A DNA stretch of 51,479 bases from Methanobacteriota archaeon (GTDB lineage Archaea > Thermoplasmatota > DTKX01 > VGTL01), in assembly GCA_016874675.1 (NCBI GenBank), contig VGTL01000013.1:1-51479 (forward strand), in the 5' to 3' direction. Below, one piece after another: positions 7,143 to 49,534 of this stretch. The notes under the pieces were generated by a model, which was not told where the DNA came from, did no database searches, and worked only from the letters and a program-made list of their open reading frames with translations. Position numbers and translations under genes: made by a program. How positions within the stretch are numbered: the stretch's first letter is position 1; every line of letters begins with the position of its first letter.

Positions 7143-10100
7143 ATGTCGCTCGCCCCGGGAAGGATGGTCGGGAGGGAGGCGGAGCTCCGAAAGCTCTCCG
7201 AGCGGCTGGAGGCCGCGAGGGTGGGCAACGGTTCGACCGTCATTATATGCGGCGAGACCGGGATAGGCAAGACGCGCCTTCTGGACGAGCTCGCCTCCTC
7301 GGCCGTGGGCGTCCGGATGCTGCGCGGCTCGTGCCTGCTCGAGTCCGCCTCGCCGTTCCTGCCTTTCAGGGAGGCGCTGGCCTCCGGGGGCCTGGGCGCC
7401 CTTCTCGCCGGCGGCCAGAGCCCCCGGCTCGAGGCCGTCTACCTCATCAGCCTCCAGGGGCTGCTCCTGGGCAAGGCGGAGCGCAGGAGCACCGACTTCG
7501 ACGCCGACGTGTTCTCCTCGATGCTCCACGCCGTGGAGTCCTTCGTGCAGGATTCGCTTTCCCGCTTCTCCGGCCGGGAGACCCAAGACGGCCTGAACAG
7601 CATGGGCTACGGCCGGTACACCATCCTCCTCCAGAAGTGCCGGCTCTTCTCGATGGTCGCGATGATCTCCGGCCAGCGCAACGAGTTCCTGATAGAGGAC
7701 CTGGGGGCGGCCTCGGGTACCATCCTGCGCGACTTCGGCTCCAAAATTGAATACTGGAACGGCATAGTCGACCGGGTGAAGGGCATAGAGGGCCCGCTGG
7801 AGGCGCTGCTCTCTTCGGGCAAGTACGACGGCATAGACTACGCCCGGGACGACCCGAGGCTGCGCCAGGCCAACATAATGGAGAACGTCGCCCGCGGGCT
7901 TGAGCGCGAAAGCCGCGCCTTCCCGGTCTGCCTCGTGCTCGAGGACCTGCAGTGGTCCGATCCCTCTTCACTGGCCCTGCTCCACTTCCTGTCGCGCAAC
8001 ACGCGACGGGACCCGGTGCTCCTGATCGGCACCTACCGGCCGGAGGACCTCCTGCCGTCGCCGGACGGCTCGGAGCACCCCCTCCTGGCCTTCCTGCGCA
8101 CGGCCGCCTCCGAAAACCTCCTCGAGCGCACCGAGCTCGGGAGGCTGGGCCCGGAGCACACCGACGAGATGGTCCGGGACGTGCTCGGTCCCTCGGAGCT
8201 GCCGCCGGAGTTCACCGCGCAGGTCCACCGGGAGACCGACGGCAACCCGATGTTCGTTTTGGAGCTTCTGCGCCTCTACGAGCAGGAGGGCGCCGTATTC
8301 CGGGAGGGCGGCGCCTGGCGCGCCCGGGAGGCGTGCACCACCTGCGCCCCGGCGCGGGTCAACGAGGTGGTTCTGAGGAGGCTGGGCCGGCTCTCCCAGG
8401 AGCAGCGCGACGTCTTGGACTGCGCCAGCGTCATCGGGCTGGAGTTTTCGGCCGACCTCCTGGGCCGGGCGCTGGACCTCAACCGGCTCAGGCTCCTGCG
8501 CACCCTCAAGGAGCTCGAGGACCCGCACCGCCTGGTCCGGGCCCGCCAGGACCGCTACCGCTTCGACCAGACCCGGGTGCGCGAGCTCCTCTACTCAGGG
8601 CTGGGCCCGGACCTCCGCCGGGAGTACCACCGCCTCGTGGCGGCGGCTATGGAGGGGGCGGCGCCGGAGGGCCCGGCCGCAGAGGAGCTGGCCTACCACT
8701 ACATGAAGGGCGGGGAGCCGGCCAAGGCCGTCCCGCTCCTGGCCGCCGCCGGCGACCGCGCCCGGAGGGAGTACGCCAACCCGGAGGCCCTGAGATACTA
8801 CACGGACGCCCTGGATCTCATGGGCGCGGACCCGCAGTACGCCGGCGACATCGCCGGGCTCCAGGACCGCTCGGGCGAGGTGCTCTCGGCCACGGGGGAC
8901 TTCGACCGGGCCGTGGAGCGCTACCGGAAGGCCCTGGCGGTGCTGACCTCGGGCCGGCTCGGCTGGGGCCCGCCGGCGCGCCTGCGCGCGGCCGCGGTGA
9001 TGCGCCGGATGTCCGAATCCCTTGAGAAGAAGGGCGACCTCGAGAGCGCCGAGCACGGGCTGGAGAGCGCCCTCCAGATGCTCGGGGAGGACGACCCCGC
9101 CGAGAGGGGCCGGGCGCTCCTGGGGAAGGGCGTGCTGCGCTGGAAGCAGGGCGACTACGCAGGCGCCGATGCGTTCATAAGGGAGTCGCTGGGGGCGCTC
9201 GGGACGGCCGGCGCCGACCGCAAGGACCTCTCCAAGGCGCACAACCTGGCGGGCCTCGTGGCCCAGAGCCGGGGCGACTACGACGGCGCCCTCCTGGAGT
9301 TCCAAACAAGCCTGGACATCGACCTCTCGACGGGGGACCTTCGCAGCGCCATCTCCACCCGGAACAACATCGGCGTCGCCCTGTGGAACAAGGACGACTA
9401 CGACCGGGCCTTGCGCATCTTCGAGGAGAACCTGGCCAGCATCGAGAAGGTGGGGGACCGGCACGCCCTGGGGAACACCCTGAACAACCTGGGCCTCATC
9501 CAGTGGAACCGCGGCCGGTACGCGCAGGCGCGCGAGTGGCACCTGAAGAGCCTGGCGGTCCGGGAGCGCATCGGCGACCGGCCGGGCATCGCCTCCTGCC
9601 TGAACAACCTGGGCCTGGTGGACTGGGGGCTCGGCGAGCACGCCTCGGCGCTCCAAAGCTTCGGGCGGTGCCTGGCGCTGCGAGAGGAGCTCGGCGACCG
9701 CAGCGGGACCGCGGTGGTGCTCAACAACATCGGCAACGTCCTGGCGGACCGCTCGCGCTACGGCGAGGCCCTGGACCACTACCGCCGGAGCCTGGCCATA
9801 TCGGAGGAGCTGGGCGACCGCCAGGGGATAGCCATCGCCCTGAACAACCTGGGCGACGTCTCCTCGAGGCTGGGCCGGATGGACGAGGCGTTCGGCCACC
9901 ACCAGAGGTCCGTCGGGATCCTCGAGAGCATCGGCGACATCCAGGGCGTGGCCGTGGCCTACAACAACATCGGCAACCTGTACATCGAGAAGGGCGAGTA
10001 CGACCGGACGCTCGAGTACTTCGAGAAGAGCCGGGCCATCATCGAGAGGATAGGCGACGAGAGGGGGCTCGCGGTGGCGCTCAACAACCTGGGGGACCTC

Positions 10101-10613
10101 CACTACTACAAGGGAGAGCCGGCGAGGGCGGAGGAGCTCTACCTTCAGAGCGTGGCCATCGCGGAGAGGACGGGCGACCGGCGGATACTGGTGGAGAACT
10201 TCTGCGGGCTGGCCGAGGCGCGCCTCCGGCAGGGCGACCTGGAGGGGGCGGCCTCCCACGCGAGCACGGCCAACGAGATGTCCCGGGCGGTCGGGCTGCG
10301 CGAGAACGAGGGCTGGAGCCTGCGCATACTGGGCCGCGTGTACGGCAAGCAGGGCAAGTGGATGAAATGCATGGAGCTTTTGGACCAGGGGGTCAGGCTC
10401 TACCGGGAGATCGGCCTGGAGGCCGAGGAGGGGGACGCCCTCCTGGAGATAGGCGAGGCCTACCTCGAGAGGGGGGAGCTCGAGAAGGCCGGGGACTGCC
10501 TCGAGAAGGCGGCCGACATCTTCGAGAGGCGGGGGATGGCGGCGAAGGCCGAGCGCGCCCGGGTGTCGCTAGAGAAGATGGGGTCGCCGGGCGCCGCCGC
10601 CGACAACCACTGA
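7143..10613 (+). CDS. STAND-like ATPase with an inserted Roadblock-like domain and a TPR array
   Basis: A 1156-residue soluble protein. The AAA_16 ATPase has Walker A GETGIGKT (37-44) and Walker B CLVLEDLQWSD (about 260-270), with sensor-type GTYRPEDL nearby and a winged region to about 500. Between the Walker motifs, residues about 95-225 form an extra domain that matches the cytoplasmic tail of the kelch protein at 43966-49512: DADVFSSMLHAVESFVQDS against DADLMASMLTAVKAFIKES, and MGYGRYTILLQKCR against MEYGENKILLQKGR. The rest (about 560-1150) is a superhelix with eleven or so 40-residue TPRs, many with the signature GDRxGIAxxLNNLG. The layout resembles MalT/AfsR-type signal ATPases, but no DNA-binding domain is seen at either end, so the output is probably protein-based. 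A leaderless promoter lies at 7108-7119. Confidence 0.87.
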   Translation: MSLAPGRMVGREAELRKLSERLEAARVGNGSTVIICGETGIGKTRLLDELASSAVGVRMLRGSCLLESASPFLPFREALASGGLGALLAGGQSPRLEAVYLISLQGLLLGKAERRSTDFDADVFSSMLHAVESFVQDSLSRFSGRETQDGLNSMGYGRYTILLQKCRLFSMVAMISGQRNEFLIEDLGAASGTILRDFGSKIEYWNGIVDRVKGIEGPLEALLSSGKYDGIDYARDDPRLRQANIMENVARGLERESRAFPVCLVLEDLQWSDPSSLALLHFLSRNTRRDPVLLIGTYRPEDLLPSPDGSEHPLLAFLRTAASENLLERTELGRLGPEHTDEMVRDVLGPSELPPEFTAQVHRETDGNPMFVLELLRLYEQEGAVFREGGAWRAREACTTCAPARVNEVVLRRLGRLSQEQRDVLDCASVIGLEFSADLLGRALDLNRLRLLRTLKELEDPHRLVRARQDRYRFDQTRVRELLYSGLGPDLRREYHRLVAAAMEGAAPEGPAAEELAYHYMKGGEPAKAVPLLAAAGDRARREYANPEALRYYTDALDLMGADPQYAGDIAGLQDRSGEVLSATGDFDRAVERYRKALAVLTSGRLGWGPPARLRAAAVMRRMSESLEKKGDLESAEHGLESALQMLGEDDPAERGRALLGKGVLRWKQGDYAGADAFIRESLGALGTAGADRKDLSKAHNLAGLVAQSRGDYDGALLEFQTSLDIDLSTGDLRSAISTRNNIGVALWNKDDYDRALRIFEENLASIEKVGDRHALGNTLNNLGLIQWNRGRYAQAREWHLKSLAVRERIGDRPGIASCLNNLGLVDWGLGEHASALQSFGRCLALREELGDRSGTAVVLNNIGNVLADRSRYGEALDHYRRSLAISEELGDRQGIAIALNNLGDVSSRLGRMDEAFGHHQRSVGILESIGDIQGVAVAYNNIGNLYIEKGEYDRTLEYFEKSRAIIERIGDERGLAVALNNLGDLHYYKGEPARAEELYLQSVAIAERTGDRRILVENFCGLAEARLRQGDLEGAASHASTANEMSRAVGLRENEGWSLRILGRVYGKQGKWMKCMELLDQGVRLYREIGLEAEEGDALLEIGEAYLERGELEKAGDCLEKAADIFERRGMAAKAERARVSLEKMGSPGAAADNH

Positions 10614-35545: not shown

Positions 35546-35820
35546 ATAAAGGCGCAAGGCGCAAGGCGCAAGGCGCGAGGCTTGAGGCGCAAGGGTCAAG
35601 GCATATGGAACAAGGGGGAGGGAGCAAGGCAGCAAGGCAGCAAGGCAGCAAGGCAGCAAGGCAGCAAGGCAGCAAGGCAGCAAGGCAACAAGGGGACGAC
35701 GGGTCGTTCCATACCCCCTGCTGCCTTGCTGCCTTGCTGCCTTCCCTTGCTCCCTTTCTGCATTCCTGCCTTCCTGCCTTTTCCCCTCGCGCCCTGCGCC
35801 TTGCGCCTTGCGCCTTTTTC
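35546..35820. repeat. hairpin repeat with two nested unit types (AAGGCGC outside, GGCAGCAA inside)
   Basis: Outer units AAGGCGC x4-5 (35549-35580) pair with GCGCCTT units at 35790-35817; inner GGCAGCAA repeated about eight times (35628-35690) pairs with TTGCTGCC x3 (35718-35745). The core at 35692-35710 is GGGGACGACGGGTCGTTCC. It lies between divergent genes, just outside the V4R promoter. The nesting of two unit types in symmetric order is clear. Confidence 0.85.
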
Positions 35821-35873
35821 ATGCGCGATACAACAAGGTTTATCTATGTCGTACAGCGTTGAAGCATCCGGCC

Positions 35874-36290
35874 ATGTCCGGCAGGCACGTGTTGATTTCG
35901 CAGGAGGAGCTCAACGAGATACGCGCGCTCTACGAGGGCGTGATGTCCAACGCCTCCCACGGCCTGTTCTTCAAGGAAGGGAGCATAATCGGCATCGGGG
36001 TCGCCTCCATCGCCAACCGGGACCGGGGGACCTACTTCGAGACCTGCCGCAGGGTGCTTAGGGAGAAGAACTGGGTGAAGGACATCGCGTTCGACCAAGA
36101 CACCGTCTCCGCCACGGGCTCCATAGAGGCGTCCCGGGGGGAATCCCCCACCTGCCACCGCCTGCGCGGCATAATCCGGAAGATATACGAGGTTTATATG
36201 GAAAGAAAGGTATACTGCCAGGAGGTGGAGTGCGAGTCCACCGGGCGGGAGCGGTGCCAGTTCAAGATCCTTTCCGAATCGAAATGGTGA
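35874..36290 (+). CDS. V4R-domain protein
   Basis: A 138-residue cytoplasmic protein. The C-terminal half (about 75-135) is a V4R domain, shown by the end motif YCQEVECESTGRERCQFKI with three cysteines in the usual spacing; V4R domains bind small aromatic or hydrophobic ligands and may bind metal. The N-terminal half (EIRALYEGVMSNASHGLFFKEG ... IGIGVAS) is the usual leading part of the V4R/4VR fold. ATG 35874 is the first start within the conserved region; a TATA-like TTTATC lies about 33 bases upstream. It is followed after 13 bases by the Roadblock gene, so the pair is probably one operon. Confidence 0.8.
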   Translation: MSGRHVLISQEELNEIRALYEGVMSNASHGLFFKEGSIIGIGVASIANRDRGTYFETCRRVLREKNWVKDIAFDQDTVSATGSIEASRGESPTCHRLRGIIRKIYEVYMERKVYCQEVECESTGRERCQFKILSESKW

Positions 36291-36303: not shown

Positions 36304-36666
36304 ATGCTTCGGTCCGAAAAGCTGGGGGAGATCCTGCGGGAGCTCAAGAAGGTCGGGGGCATCGAGGCCTCGGCGGTCGTGAGCCGCGACGGCATCCTGA
36401 TGGCCTCGGACATCCCGGACGACGTCCACGGCGAGACCTTCGCCATCATGAGCGCGACCATGCTGGGGGCCGCCATCACCGCCAACTCCGAGCTGCGCAA
36501 GAAGCTCCCCGACCGCATAATAGTCGAATCGGGCGACGGCCGCACCGTGGTGGCCGGCGCCGGGGAGAAGAGCCTGCTCGTCGTCAGCACCCGGGGGGCC
36601 GCCGACATTGCGGCGGTGCTCAAGGGCATCGACGGGGCCTGCTCCCGCGTCGAGGAGATGGAGTAG
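36304..36666 (+). CDS. Roadblock/LC7-domain protein (MglB-like)
   Basis: A 120-residue single-domain Roadblock protein: helix KLGEILRELKKVGGIEASAV, then VVSRDGILMASDIP, AIMSATMLGAAITAN, RIIVESGDG and LLVVSTRG, the strand-helix order of the family. Members act as GAP-like or scaffold partners of small Ras-like GTPases, or pair with V4R proteins in archaea and Myxococcus-type polarity systems. No GTPase gene is in this window. GGGGGAAACAAG precedes the ATG. It is downstream of and probably co-transcribed with the V4R gene. Confidence 0.88.
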   Translation: MLRSEKLGEILRELKKVGGIEASAVVSRDGILMASDIPDDVHGETFAIMSATMLGAAITANSELRKKLPDRIIVESGDGRTVVAGAGEKSLLVVSTRGAADIAAVLKGIDGACSRVEEME

Positions 36667-43965: not shown

Positions 43966-46900
43966 TTAGTTTTTCGTCTCGGTCTCCCCGGCCGCCATCT
44001 CCTGCTCCGAGGCCTTGTCCAGGAGCGTCCGCACGTTCGCCACGGCGGCGACCGCTTCGGGCTCCGTCACCTGGGCGGCCTGCGGCCTCCCCTTCTGGGT
44101 CTCCAGCTCCCGGTTCAGGTCCGATTTCAACTCGGCGAGCATCCCGGTGAGCATGAGCGTCGAGCTGGAGGCCACGAAGAACTCCAGCACCTTCTTTTCA
44201 CCCAGGACGCGGGCCCTTATCACCAGCCTGTCCGGCCGGCCCTTCGCCTTCCCGTAGTACCAGGCCTCTCCGATGAATGGCCTCTCCTCGGCGAACTCCC
44301 TCACGAGTCGCACGTCGTGGTGCTGCACCGCCGCCTCGGCGAGGTCGAAGGCGATCTCCGGCGCGAGTGAAGGTGGAATCGAGAAGACCTTCGTGTCCTT
44401 CTTGTCGAGCTCCTCGGCCGCCATCCTCTTTATCATCGCCGTGTTTATGTTCTCATCGGTGTACATTATCGGGCACACCACCGAGGCGAGCTTGCGTGGC
44501 ATCTTGAGGGTCTCCAGATTGCCATGCGCGTCCTTGAACGTCAGGACGCCCTCGACATAGGATTCCGTGCATGTCTGCGGGTCCAGGTAGAACGCCACGG
44601 TCCGCTTCTCTCCGGGGTCCACTATGCCCAAGACGACCTGCTCGCCCTTCCTTTCGCACTCCGGCTCGACGCGGTCGAGCCTCAGGACGGACTCGTTGTA
44701 CATCAATGTGAAGGCGGCACGGGTGATGTTGGTTTGCATGTTGTTCTTGACCGCCACCTTCAGCCTGACGAAGCCCTGGTAGAACTCCAGCTCGGACTTG
44801 AGCAAGACATCTGCCCGGGGCGGCGCGGTGGCGGCCTCCGCGGCCTTGTAGGCTCCAAGCTGCGACAGGAACCGCCGAGCCCCGTCGAGCCTCAGCGCGC
44901 GGCCGTCCCAGGATTCCAGCACCGGCCCGAACTCGCTTTCGACGTTGGACACCGTTCCCTTCATCTCGTCCCTGAAACCGGGGGGCTCGGCACCTTCGAT
45001 GACCGCCGCCAGGACGACGCGCCTGCCTTTCTGGAGGAGTATCTTGTTCTCCCCGTACTCCATCGCGCCCAGCTCCGTCCCCTCGGCCATCCCGACGCTC
45101 TCCTTTATGAAAGCCTTGACCGCGGTCAGCATCGAGGCCATCAGGTCGGCGTCCATGTCGGCCTTCATCCTGCGGGTCGTGTGCTGGATGAGCCGGCCGT
45201 CCTGGTACATCAGGAAGAGGTCCTCGACGGCGAAGCCCGCGGGCGCGACGGTGACCGTTGCGGGAATCGCCGGGGACGGTTCAGCGACCGGCGCGATTAT
45301 TGTCGGTGGAGGGAGGGCCTCAGCCGCCGACTTGGCCGGAATGGCGTGGGTCCCAGGCAATGGCCCCACCATCGAAGGCTCCGGTTCCTTTTCAGGCTCC
45401 TTCGGTGGGGCTTCCTCTCCGACTGGCGGGGGCGGCGCCTCTTCGGCTTCGGTCGCCGACGGTCCCGGAACGATAGCCCCGGCCTTCCTTTTTCGCAGTG
45501 CTCTCCAGCCGACGGTGCCAACGGCCGCCACCGCAACGATGAGCAGCAGAAGCATCACCGGGACGAGGTACGAGACCCCGCCGGTCGCGGGTGGCGAGTA
45601 CTTTATGGTCGCCGAGACCGGGTCGGCCACATTTCCCGCCTTGTCCCTGACCTTTAGATAAATCGTCTTGCTGCCCCGGTCCTTCGTGAGATTCCAGGCC
45701 TTGGAGGCGGCAAAAGGTTCCCAATCCAAGAAGAGTATCCCATCGGTGCTGAAACAGATGGAATCCAGGCCCGAGAGGTTGTCCGAGGCCAGAATCGAGA
45801 GCGAGACCTTTGTCTTTGCGGTCTCTTTCCTCCCTTCGTTGATCTTAAGGAATATCTGGCCCGGTGGAGTTCTGTCGATGTAGGCCGGCACGGTGCCCTC
45901 GGCGCAGTTGCCGGCGACGTCGTAGGCCCTCACGACGACCTCTTGCCGGCCCTCGGAAAGGTTGGCGAACCGGCAGGGGCTCGTCCGGACTGCCAGATTC
46001 TTATCCGCGAGGCCGACCTCGTACCGGCTGACGCCGCTCGTGTTGTCCACGGTCGAGAAGGTGATGTCCGGGTCCTGGTTCGTCCAAGAGGCCGGGCTGG
46101 CGACGGGCGTGAAATTGGCCGGTGGCGTCTTGTCGATGAAGAGCTCGATCGTCGCCTCGGCGCAATTGGCTGCCCGGTCATAGGCCCTTATCGTGATGTT
46201 GTGCCGGCCGTCGGGAAGGTCGGGCACCTGAAAAGGGCTTGTCCGGCACGCGAAACCGGCGCCCGGCAGCTTCACATCGTACCGGTCGATTTCGCTCGTG
46301 TTGTCCAGGGCGTGGAAGGTGATGTTGGGGTCCTTGTTCGTCCACCCGGTGAAATCGAGGGAAATGCTGAAATTGAACGGCCCGGCGCTGTCCAGGTAGA
46401 CGATCACGGCGCCGTCCATGAAGTTGCCTGCCCTGTCAAAGGCCCGGACCGTGATGTTGTGCCGGCCGTCAGGAAGGGTCGGAAGGGTGAACGGGCTTGT
46501 CTGGCAGGAGAAGGCGCCTCCGCCCACGCTGACCCTGTAGCGCTCGACGCCGCTGGAGGCGTCGGACGTTTCGAAAGTTATACGCGGCGAGCCGTTGGTC
46601 CAGCCGGGAGGTTCCGCGGCGGGAGCGAACGCAAGCGGGGGCGTCCGGTCCTGAAAGACATCCAGTTGACCAATCGCATAATTCCATAGCCTGTCGAACG
46701 CCCTGACCGTGATGTTGTGCTCTCCGTCCGACAGTGGCGGGAGGGTGAAGGGGCTTGCCTGAGCGCCTTGGGAGAGGCCATCTATCTCCACCTCATAATG
46801 GTCCATCCCGGCGAAAGCGTCGGTCGTTTCAAATGAGACCTGGATAGTCCCGTTGGTCCATCCGGGCGGAGAGGCTATCGGCTGGAATGATTCCGGGGGG

Positions 46901-49512
46901 CTGGCATCGATGCGCAGCAGGCGCCCAGCACAGTAGGGACCCCAGCCGCCGTCGCTGTCCAGCGTCCTGACGCGCCAGTAGTACGCGCCGTCGGCGATGG
47001 GGTTCTCCGGCTGGTATGCCAGCTCGCTCGAGTCGACCTGGCCGCTGTCGAGGATTATCGAATCGAAGAGCGACGAATCGTCCAGTTGCCACTGGAAGCC
47101 GGCCACCGAGGAATCCCGGTCGGAGAAATTCCAGCCAAACAGCGGCCTGGAATCGTTGGACCAGGCCCCTTCGTACGGGGAATTGAGTGTGGCGTTCTCC
47201 GGCAGGAGATTGTAATTTATCGTGACATTGCGAAGAAGAGGCGTAAAGCCCGGCTCGGTGGTGCACAGGTATGCGCGGTACTGGAACCAGCGGGAGCCGT
47301 TGTGGCCGCTGAATATCCCCTGCCCGGTCGTGCTGTAGCATGTCTTGTTGGTGCCGTCGGGACCGATGAAGGGCGTGGAATTGAGGCCTGCCTCCGTGTC
47401 GGCGGTGCGGAACTGGAATGTCAGGGTCGTGTTGGCGGGAACGGTCGCGTTCCACCTAAGCTCGCCGAAGCAGGCGGCGCCGCTAGAATCTATTGGCTGG
47501 GAGGTGAAGTTGCCGGAGGGGAGGTAGCGCTTGAGATTGTAGGCCCAGGTGTCGGCGAGAGTGTAGCCGAATGGATGGCCACCGAATAATACTATCGTTC
47601 CCGTGTTGCTGTCACATGCCATGCCTGCCATGAACCGAGCGACCGGCATCTTTGAAGGTGTGAGCTGCGTCCAGACATTACGGCTCAGGTTGTAGGTCCA
47701 CATGTCCGCCGGTTCAAAATATGTATCTTTGAACAGGACCATTCCGCCAAGTGACGGATCATAAACCAGACGCCCCGTCATAGGAGGTGGGGAGACCGAG
47801 GGTTTCATTTCCGTCCAAGTGTCGTTTGTCACATTGTATGTCCAGGTGTCGTTGTACTCTACTGCGCCTATACCGCCGAAAAGCACCATGACCCCGTTGC
47901 TCCGGTCATAATCCATGGCAGGGCACCATCTTGCGGGCGGGTGAGAGGCCGGTTTCTTCTCCTCCCAAACATTGTTACTTATATTGTACGTCCATGTATC
48001 GACAAGATATGCACCGAAATAAGTACAACCTCCGTACATGATCACCATACCGTTCTTCGAATCATAAGAAAGGACATGTCCATTTCGGCGAGTTGGGGCC
48101 GGATTCGGATGCATACTCGTCCAGGTATCCTTGCTAAGGTCGTAGGTCCAAGTGTAATCGTCCAGGTCCGGATTCCCAAACAATACCGCCACCCCGTTGG
48201 CGCTGTCGAACGCCAACCGGGCATCAGAGGTGCCGGGCGGGGATAGCTTGGGGCGTCTCTCGGTCCACCGGCCGGTCTTCGTGTCGAAGGTCCAGGTGTC
48301 GTTGGGGTAGGAACCATCAACCCCTTTCCCCCCGAATAAAATGATCGCATCATTCCTGTCATCATGCGTCATTCCCATTGAGTACCTGTGGGACGGGGAT
48401 GAAGTCTTCCTCGTCCACATATTTCTGCTCAGGTTGTATGTCCAGGTATCATCGCCTACTTGCGTGCCACTCCACACATTCCCGCCGAAGAGAACGGTTT
48501 CACCACCTCCAGAATCGTATGACATTCCGTGATAGCATCTCGGCAAAGGCGCCAGGGACGGCTTCTGCTCGGTCCAGGTGTTGGTGGCGAGGTCATATGT
48601 CCAGGTATCATTCACCAATCCGGATGGGACCGAGGGGTCAGCCCCTCCGAAAAGGATTGCCTTGCCGTTATGGCTGTCAAAGACCATGGAATAGCCCGTC
48701 CTGTTGGACGGGGCATTGGTGGGTGACTGGTTTGTCCAGAGGTTCGTGCTGACATCGTACGTCCACGTGTCATTCAAATAGCGGCGATCTTGGTCCTCCC
48801 CACCGAACAGCGCAACCTTCCTGTTGATGCTATCATAGACCATCGCGCCAGAGCTCCGTCCGGGAGGCGACACAGCAGGCATCGCATTGGTCCATTTCCT
48901 GGAAGACGAATTGTAGAGCCATGTCTCATTTATATAACCGAGTCCGCCGAAGAGCACCGCCACCTTGTTGGCGCTGTCATAGGCCATTGCCTGTGCGCCA
49001 TTGGGGGCTGGCCCCGGACGGATGTCCCTGGAGGTCCATTTGTCAGCGCTCACGTTGTAGCTCCACGTATAATAATAATATAGGAGCATCTCGCCGTTGG
49101 CGCTGTCGTAGACAATCGGATTCGATGTTGCGCCGCCTGGATTCTCTTTGGGGTGTCTTTCTGTCCAGGTATTGGTGCTGTGATTGTAGACCCAGGTCTC
49201 ATTGCAATAGAGCCACTTGATGCCTCCGAAGAGCACCGAGACCCCGTTGGCGCTGTCGTAGGCCATGAAATGGGTCCATCTGTTGTCCGGCCACGAGTTC
49301 ATCCTCGTCCAGTTGTTCAGGCAGGTCTCGTTGTAGGGAAGCCGCATTCCCTGCGGAGTGACGGTGGCGTTGAACCTCGTCGCGTTCTGGAAACCCTCGG
49401 TTCCCTGTGTCAACGATGTCTCGCCGTCGGAGACCTGGGACGCCATCGGTGGCAAAAGCATCGTGGCGACGGTGATTATGCTGGCGAGCCGGGCCGCGGC
49501 CGGACAAGGCAT
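43966..49512 (-). CDS. giant kelch transmembrane protein with cytoplasmic Roadblock-like domain
   Basis: An 1848-residue type I membrane protein. After the signal (AARLASIITVATMLLPPMA), about eleven to twelve kelch repeats (about 45-640) show MxYDSxNGxxVLFGG then NDTWTYNxSTNxW. Next come a jelly-roll-like region (650-760), an FN3-like domain (about 765-860), and five tandem 85-residue Ig-like domains (865-1230), each with PPGWTNGxxxITFETxD and LPDGRHNITVRAFDRAGN. A further Ig-like segment leads to one helix at about 1290-1320 (LVPVMLLLLIVAVAAVGTVG). After a Pro/Glu linker, a domain at about 1425-1530 (VEDLFLMYQDGRLIQHTTRR) matches the insert of the ATPase at 7143, and a last region (about 1545-1848) is of unknown fold. 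The TATA at 49535-49543 is 27 bases from ATG 49512. Confidence 0.87.
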   Translation of the reverse strand: MPCPAAARLASIITVATMLLPPMASQVSDGETSLTQGTEGFQNATRFNATVTPQGMRLPYNETCLNNWTRMNSWPDNRWTHFMAYDSANGVSVLFGGIKWLYCNETWVYNHSTNTWTERHPKENPGGATSNPIVYDSANGEMLLYYYYTWSYNVSADKWTSRDIRPGPAPNGAQAMAYDSANKVAVLFGGLGYINETWLYNSSSRKWTNAMPAVSPPGRSSGAMVYDSINRKVALFGGEDQDRRYLNDTWTYDVSTNLWTNQSPTNAPSNRTGYSMVFDSHNGKAILFGGADPSVPSGLVNDTWTYDLATNTWTEQKPSLAPLPRCYHGMSYDSGGGETVLFGGNVWSGTQVGDDTWTYNLSRNMWTRKTSSPSHRYSMGMTHDDRNDAIILFGGKGVDGSYPNDTWTFDTKTGRWTERRPKLSPPGTSDARLAFDSANGVAVLFGNPDLDDYTWTYDLSKDTWTSMHPNPAPTRRNGHVLSYDSKNGMVIMYGGCTYFGAYLVDTWTYNISNNVWEEKKPASHPPARWCPAMDYDRSNGVMVLFGGIGAVEYNDTWTYNVTNDTWTEMKPSVSPPPMTGRLVYDPSLGGMVLFKDTYFEPADMWTYNLSRNVWTQLTPSKMPVARFMAGMACDSNTGTIVLFGGHPFGYTLADTWAYNLKRYLPSGNFTSQPIDSSGAACFGELRWNATVPANTTLTFQFRTADTEAGLNSTPFIGPDGTNKTCYSTTGQGIFSGHNGSRWFQYRAYLCTTEPGFTPLLRNVTINYNLLPENATLNSPYEGAWSNDSRPLFGWNFSDRDSSVAGFQWQLDDSSLFDSIILDSGQVDSSELAYQPENPIADGAYYWRVRTLDSDGGWGPYCAGRLLRIDASPPESFQPIASPPGWTNGTIQVSFETTDAFAGMDHYEVEIDGLSQGAQASPFTLPPLSDGEHNITVRAFDRLWNYAIGQLDVFQDRTPPLAFAPAAEPPGWTNGSPRITFETSDASSGVERYRVSVGGGAFSCQTSPFTLPTLPDGRHNITVRAFDRAGNFMDGAVIVYLDSAGPFNFSISLDFTGWTNKDPNITFHALDNTSEIDRYDVKLPGAGFACRTSPFQVPDLPDGRHNITIRAYDRAANCAEATIELFIDKTPPANFTPVASPASWTNQDPDITFSTVDNTSGVSRYEVGLADKNLAVRTSPCRFANLSEGRQEVVVRAYDVAGNCAEGTVPAYIDRTPPGQIFLKINEGRKETAKTKVSLSILASDNLSGLDSICFSTDGILFLDWEPFAASKAWNLTKDRGSKTIYLKVRDKAGNVADPVSATIKYSPPATGGVSYLVPVMLLLLIVAVAAVGTVGWRALRKRKAGAIVPGPSATEAEEAPPPPVGEEAPPKEPEKEPEPSMVGPLPGTHAIPAKSAAEALPPPTIIAPVAEPSPAIPATVTVAPAGFAVEDLFLMYQDGRLIQHTTRRMKADMDADLMASMLTAVKAFIKESVGMAEGTELGAMEYGENKILLQKGRRVVLAAVIEGAEPPGFRDEMKGTVSNVESEFGPVLESWDGRALRLDGARRFLSQLGAYKAAEAATAPPRADVLLKSELEFYQGFVRLKVAVKNNMQTNITRAAFTLMYNESVLRLDRVEPECERKGEQVVLGIVDPGEKRTVAFYLDPQTCTESYVEGVLTFKDAHGNLETLKMPRKLASVVCPIMYTDENINTAMIKRMAAEELDKKDTKVFSIPPSLAPEIAFDLAEAAVQHHDVRLVREFAEERPFIGEAWYYGKAKGRPDRLVIRARVLGEKKVLEFFVASSSTLMLTGMLAELKSDLNRELETQKGRPQAAQVTEPEAVAAVANVRTLLDKASEQEMAAGETETKN

Positions 49513-49534
49513 GCGCAAAACACGTATCTCGACA

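Follow-up and report, generated by a model that had tools for sequence, protein, structure and literature searches.

A longin-like domain is inserted into the nucleotide-binding core of a STAND-type ATPase encoded in the window (that is, the whole 51,479-nucleotide stretch of DNA analysed), and the same domain is found in the tail of a transmembrane kelch protein encoded in the same window. Genes for Ras-family GTPases travel with the domain, and point to a previously unreported signalling link from GTPase to ATPase. Longin domains, archaeal Ras-family GTPases and STAND ATPases are all already known; what is new is the longin-like domain within the STAND core, joining two known kinds of protein.

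The ATPase gene (7143–10613, + strand) encodes 1156 amino acids, forming an AAA_16 nucleotide-binding domain (4.9e-21) followed by a long array of TPR repeats (TPR_12, 8e-75). From the N terminus, Walker A (GETGIGKT, residues 37–44; 7251–7274, +) is followed by the longin-like domain (residues 94–228; 7422–7826, +), and then by Walker B (VCLVLEDLQW, residues 262–271; 7926–7955, +). The inserted segment therefore lies between the two Walker motifs, where the first-pass annotation had put it. The C-terminal TPR repeats are matched by Pfam at 8850–10553 (+), and this arm is presumed to be the ligand-binding (sensor) arm of the protein. Walker A, Walker B, the downstream STAND core and the repeat array are all present, placing the protein in the STAND/AAA_16 class. 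Walker B reads LVLEDLQW, with glutamate where the first aspartate is usual.

The kelch receptor-like protein (43966–49518, − strand) is the second of the two reading frames to which attention had been drawn, both of which are present. It comprises 1850 amino acids. A transmembrane helix is predicted from the sequence at residues 1317–1338 (45505–45570, −) and is followed by RALRKRK; because positive residues follow the helix, the tail is probably cytoplasmic. The longin-like domain of the tail (residues 1429–1557; 44848–45234, −) was located by BLASTP and by a structure model. Beyond it lies a conserved module of ~230 residues (1575–1808; 44095–44796, −) that is predicted to fold as an Ig-like sandwich and an alpha/beta platform. 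The module has no Pfam family and no significant sequence match in the PDB, and recurs in many receptor-like proteins (in the window and at L002, L003, L004, L006, L010, L030, L043, L046 and L051). The order of sandwich and then platform in the model fits that of an adaptin appendage, and appendages of COPI and AP2 make up the first 13 PDB matches (E = 1.4e-9 to 5.9e-7), though with poor superposition (TM 0.19–0.25).

The ATPase insert and the kelch segment are homologous. Aligned by BLASTP as a single pair, ATPase residues 94–228 and kelch residues 1429–1557 are identical at 42 of 134 positions (31%, E = 7e-18). The first-pass annotation had paired DADVFSSMLHAVESFVQDS with DADLMASMLTAVKAFIKES by eye, with 10 of 19 residues identical; this count is correct, and the alignment of the whole segments bears out the proposal that the proteins share one domain. 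Its position for the kelch copy, given as plus coordinates about 44930–45240, is the same spot, but the domain extends slightly further in both proteins than was thought. Neither segment matches a family in Pfam or NCBIfam, and no significant match to the domain was found in the PDB at the level of sequence. The residues conserved in the domain are D..D, ML.A, F and WDG; no signature of a pocket is evident.

The structure of the insert was modelled using AlphaFold2 with 35 family members (pLDDT 89.8). The secondary structure elements are ordered E-E-H-E-E-E-H-H, and the first part of the kelch tail model has the same order. Both models have the longin order b1-b2-a1-b3-b4-b5-a2-a3. Roadblock domains have a helix ahead of the first strand. 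That order (a1-b1-b2-a2-b3-b4-b5-a3) is absent from both models, which start with b1 and end in two helices. A fold common to the two segments, of Roadblock or longin type, had been anticipated; structure prediction and a fold search indicate the longin order specifically. The best 50 PDB matches listed for the insert model are all assemblies of the longin/roadblock superfamily; many of them are GTPase-binding, and there are no ligand sensors among the 50. The top match is Bet5/TRAPPC1 (E = 4.5e-5, TM 0.67, a moderate similarity), and the others include TRAPP, Mon1-Ccz1, AP sigma, zeta-COP, AP/COPI small chains, Ragulator and MglB. No Pfam longin or roadblock model scores above its curated cut-off. 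Single members give weak matches to Fuz_longin_1 (0.0019) and Robl_LC7 (0.0058), and such sub-threshold matches to longin and roadblock sequences are in weak agreement with the predicted fold. The domain may thus be termed longin-like by its predicted fold, but is not assigned to any Pfam family.

Assignment of the domain as a Roadblock was considered and rejected. PF03259 (Roadblock/LC7) calls none of the copies in the window, the order of elements is different, and the real Roadblock protein of the window fails to align to the domain profile. The latter is a stand-alone protein of 120 amino acids of the MglB-like family (36304–36666, +; PF03259, 1.5e-11). In its genomic context it lies back to back with the gene of a V4R-domain protein (35808–36290, +; V4R, 7.2e-11), the pair lying some 25 kb away from the ATPase gene and roughly 7 kb from that of the kelch protein. 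According to PMC10933270, TRAPPC3/Bet3 belongs to the V4R fold family.

The segment had been described as interrupting the AAA_16 domain, and it is a true insertion. Uninserted STAND paralogs coexist with the insert-bearing ATPases in the same genomes, and have a variable linker at the insertion site. Within the phylum the spacing from Walker A to Walker B is 98–154 residues in most uninserted paralogs (two have 89–91, and one whose linker is long has 173) compared with 219–232 in those bearing the insert. In a joint alignment the flanks of the insert are continuous, with PFxPFxxAL upstream and R.RMFENV...P-hhhhDDLQWAD downstream. The possibility that the insert is a normal part of the AAA_16 core is ruled out by the uninserted paralogs, even though the Pfam AAA_16 match extends into it.

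The insertion recurs in homologous ATPases, as had been expected. A domain profile search places it in 29 STAND loci of nine genomes and six families, and an insert-bearing relative that is 45% identical over 376 residues is present in the Thermoplasmata MAG RS_14_3. When the tree is calculated from the core, leaving out the insert, the window ATPase falls in a clade of 16 members spanning four families, all of which carry the insert (support 99/97); further insert-bearing proteins fall outside this clade. Bootstrap trees require 4–5 changes of label, while the strong branches are compatible with a single origin. The 29 loci include a second insert-bearing ATPase of the window's genome (L159, G000:C20:34500-40058) that has a frameshift within the longin-like domain; it could be a pseudogene or the result of a sequencing error. 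Its relative in G001:C32 is intact.

The domain itself is more widely distributed. The genome of the window has about 20 copies, the ATPase and the kelch protein included, in proteins of very different build, and 33 of 293 Thermoplasmatota genomes have the domain. Two Asgard genomes (Hermodarchaeota and Thorarchaeota) contain nine copies each, and a copy from Thorarchaeota aligns along the length of the domain profile with an hhalign probability of 98%. A search of the two Asgard genomes yielded no STAND ATPase carrying the insert.

Longin and Roadblock domains act as platforms for small GTPases (PMC3521125, PMC10933270), and therefore Ras-family GTPases were predicted to track the domain. This prediction held. 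They are present in 30 of the 33 genomes with the domain and in 6 of the 260 without (Fisher 1e-31, uncorrected for phylogeny, with counts inflated by related genomes). Presence varies among the listed genomes of families f24, f27 and f37, and there, at the strong threshold, the domain goes with the GTPase; small genomes holding one domain copy and one GTPase retain both. The genes are also linked, which is independent evidence. A GTPase gene lies within 2 kb of 14 of 131 domain copies, against 1.5 expected, in about eight independent lineages. Among the ATPases, a GTPase gene lies no more than 2.5 kb from 7 of the 29 with the insert and from none of 69 uninserted paralogs (p 1e-4), the seven including close relatives such as both G253 and G256. 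Adjacent pairs of this kind are seen, for example, at G253:C33, G281:C17, G014:C33 and G023:C122. The remaining 22 have no GTPase neighbour, and in families f1–f3 (the class of the window itself) no GTPase gene adjoins any insert-bearing ATPase. None was recognised among the window ORFs scanned, and 13 are located elsewhere in the genome. The first-pass annotation suggested that the ATPase and the kelch protein respond to a common partner; co-distribution and gene linkage indicate indirectly that Ras-family GTPases are the most likely candidates.

The neighbouring GTPases are of the Ras family, with PF00071 E values of 3e-25 to 3e-43 in nine scanned. They contain the P-loop, WDxxGQ, NKxD and SAK motifs (G1, G3, G4 and G5). 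At L143 and L144 (G014:C33 and G023:C122) the GTPase genes are divergent from that of the insert-bearing ATPase, and the proteins have an N-terminal TPR extension of ~170 residues. No natural fusion of longin and GTPase was found in eight GTPase loci inspected. Ras-family GTPases are known in archaea (PMC4915359, PMC4316618), and a small GTPase drives vesicle formation in haloarchaea (PMC10927574).

The site of insertion can be occupied by a second kind of module. Two STAND paralogs of genome G079 (L118, G079:C145 and L128, G079:C129) have 293 and 304 residues from Walker A to Walker B; their additional segment, at the site taken by the longin-like domain, is DUF835 (PF05763, E = 5.5e-35 and 5.7e-28). 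This is listed as an output domain of inactive-KaiC type in archaeal two-component systems (PMC5847659). Elsewhere in G079 one ORF fuses a Ras-family GTPase with DUF835 (L169:1525-2748, +; G079:C59), and a 416-aa ORF of G079:C161 matches both. Both modules found between Walker A and Walker B are therefore tied to the same GTPases. DUF835 also serves as a control for the co-distribution, being present in about 24 of the 33 genomes with the longin-like domain and in 135 of the 260 without, a far weaker association than that of the GTPases. A correlation due to genome richness alone is countered by this control and by the uninserted ATPases. GTPase and DUF835 genes adjoin in G001:C36, G002:C56, G003:C85, G253:C20 and G212:C24, and the genome of the window has a cassette (L154, G000:C40:6715-8630) of a GTPase, a V4R–DUF835 protein and a second GTPase.

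We think it probable, with some reservation, that the insert is a longin platform that docks a GTPase and so gates the STAND ATPase, and that the platform is shared with receptors. What the analysis establishes is the homology, insertion, recurrence, predicted fold class, co-distribution and gene linkage; both GTPase binding and the control of hydrolysis are inferred. The longin-type domain occupies the linker that runs from the second strand to the Walker B strand, and there it would most likely dock a Ras-family GTPase, either alone or as a longin homodimer or heterodimer. Once bound in one of its nucleotide states, the GTPase would then alter how the nucleotide-binding domain is arranged, or draw ATPase protomers together. 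Activation of the ATPase by ATP would depend upon two inputs, from the TPR arm and from the GTPase, with the GTPase licensing the switch. The domain is also carried by the kelch receptor and by some 18 further proteins of the genome, which would place surface receptors and the ATPase on one GTPase circuit, in which recruitment to the membrane is a further putative step. Docking of a GTPase has points against it besides the 22 insert-bearing ATPases with no GTPase neighbour, the lack of such neighbours in the class of the window and the inflated counts: some longin domains, such as the N-termini of SNAREs, have no GTPase role, and the similarity of fold is moderate (best TM 0.67).

The main rival is that the insert is a dimerisation module, forming longin–longin heterodimers with the receptor tails that bring the ATPase to the receptor with no contact with a GTPase. 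That a single genome has one domain family both in its ATPase and in its receptor tails is in keeping with this, as is the frequent dimerisation of longin and roadblock domains in the matched solved complexes. Yet it leaves unexplained the co-distribution and adjacency of Ras-family GTPases and the linkage that is specific to the insert, and the ATPase and kelch genes are 33 kb apart in the window. We consider it unlikely as the full account, while pairing with receptor tails is itself compatible with GTPase docking.

A further alternative is a small-molecule sensor of PAS-like topology that acts directly on ATP hydrolysis; the first-pass annotation had proposed a sensing domain with direct control of this kind. 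Related alpha/beta sensory folds do bind ligands, and sensors, too, are found in many contexts, as this domain is in about 20 differently built proteins. But the 50 fold matches listed are longin/roadblock assemblies that bind proteins or GTPases, the conserved residues outline no evident pocket, and the link to GTPases is not accounted for, making the proposal improbable. The fold and the genomic company of the insert fit better with a platform for docking of GTPases or other proteins than with a ligand sensor. It is more doubtful still that the insert is a tolerated passenger with no regulatory role, its correlation with GTPases reflecting genomes rich in signalling proteins. The linker is indeed variable in uninserted paralogs, two unrelated domains can fill the site, and rich genomes hold many of everything. 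Against this, the domain is conserved across the 29 loci and six families, with the well-supported 16-member clade; even small genomes that have only one copy and one GTPase keep the two together; and DUF835, although also a signalling domain, tracks the longin-like domain far less.

More tentatively, and with rather less confidence than we have in GTPase docking at the insert, the data can be read for the Thermoplasmatota as a whole. These archaea may run a Ras-GTPase circuit built from parts related to regulators of eukaryotic trafficking (longin, V4R/Bet3-fold, Roadblock and adaptin-appendage-like), with the longin module placed both in surface receptors and in the STAND core. A small GTPase might then gate the STAND switch directly, and the linker between Walker A and Walker B would be a place where GTPase-linked modules have landed repeatedly. 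Control of STAND ATPases, the class to which NLRs and apoptotic switches belong, is generally attributed to the repeat arm and to terminal adaptor domains. If the GTPase-docking reading is true, placing a docking module within the nucleotide-binding core would amount to a different principle of control. This domain family occurs outside the Asgard archaea alongside V4R, Roadblock and Ras-family GTPases as well as a receptor tail of appendage-like type, which bears on when the eukaryotic membrane-traffic toolkit arose. Neither a longin-like domain in the nucleotide-binding core of a STAND protein nor its linkage to GTPases in Thermoplasmatota was found in the literature searched, which covered few subscription journals.

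Compared with known AAA_16/TPR STAND ATPases, the window protein has an ordinary Walker A, Walker B, downstream core and TPR array, but where those have a short variable linker it has the longin-like domain. Asgard archaea also have longin-domain proteins (PMC10933270, PMC11188069), and the present domain family occurs in two Asgard genomes, but the available parts of those papers do not describe the Thermoplasmatota family. The combination of longin and adaptin appendage reported for Asgard ESCRT-linked proteins (PMC11188069) parallels the architecture of the kelch tail. MglB, the Roadblock/LC7 regulator of MglA, shares the superfamily fold, and its pairing with a small GTPase gene has a counterpart for the longin-like domain in the gene pair at G250:C23. 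It differs in that the longin-like domain lacks the N-terminal helix order of Roadblock, and the true Roadblock proteins of the genome are a separate family. The longins of TRAPP (Bet5/TRAPPC1 and Trs23) and of Mon1-Ccz1 differ in their setting, as the archaeal domain sits in the STAND core or on receptors and is missed by the Pfam longin models. They nonetheless have the same order of strands and helices and provide the best structural matches, and they too keep the company of Ras/Rab-family GTPases; in the present genomes the domain also occurs with V4R (Bet3-fold) genes.
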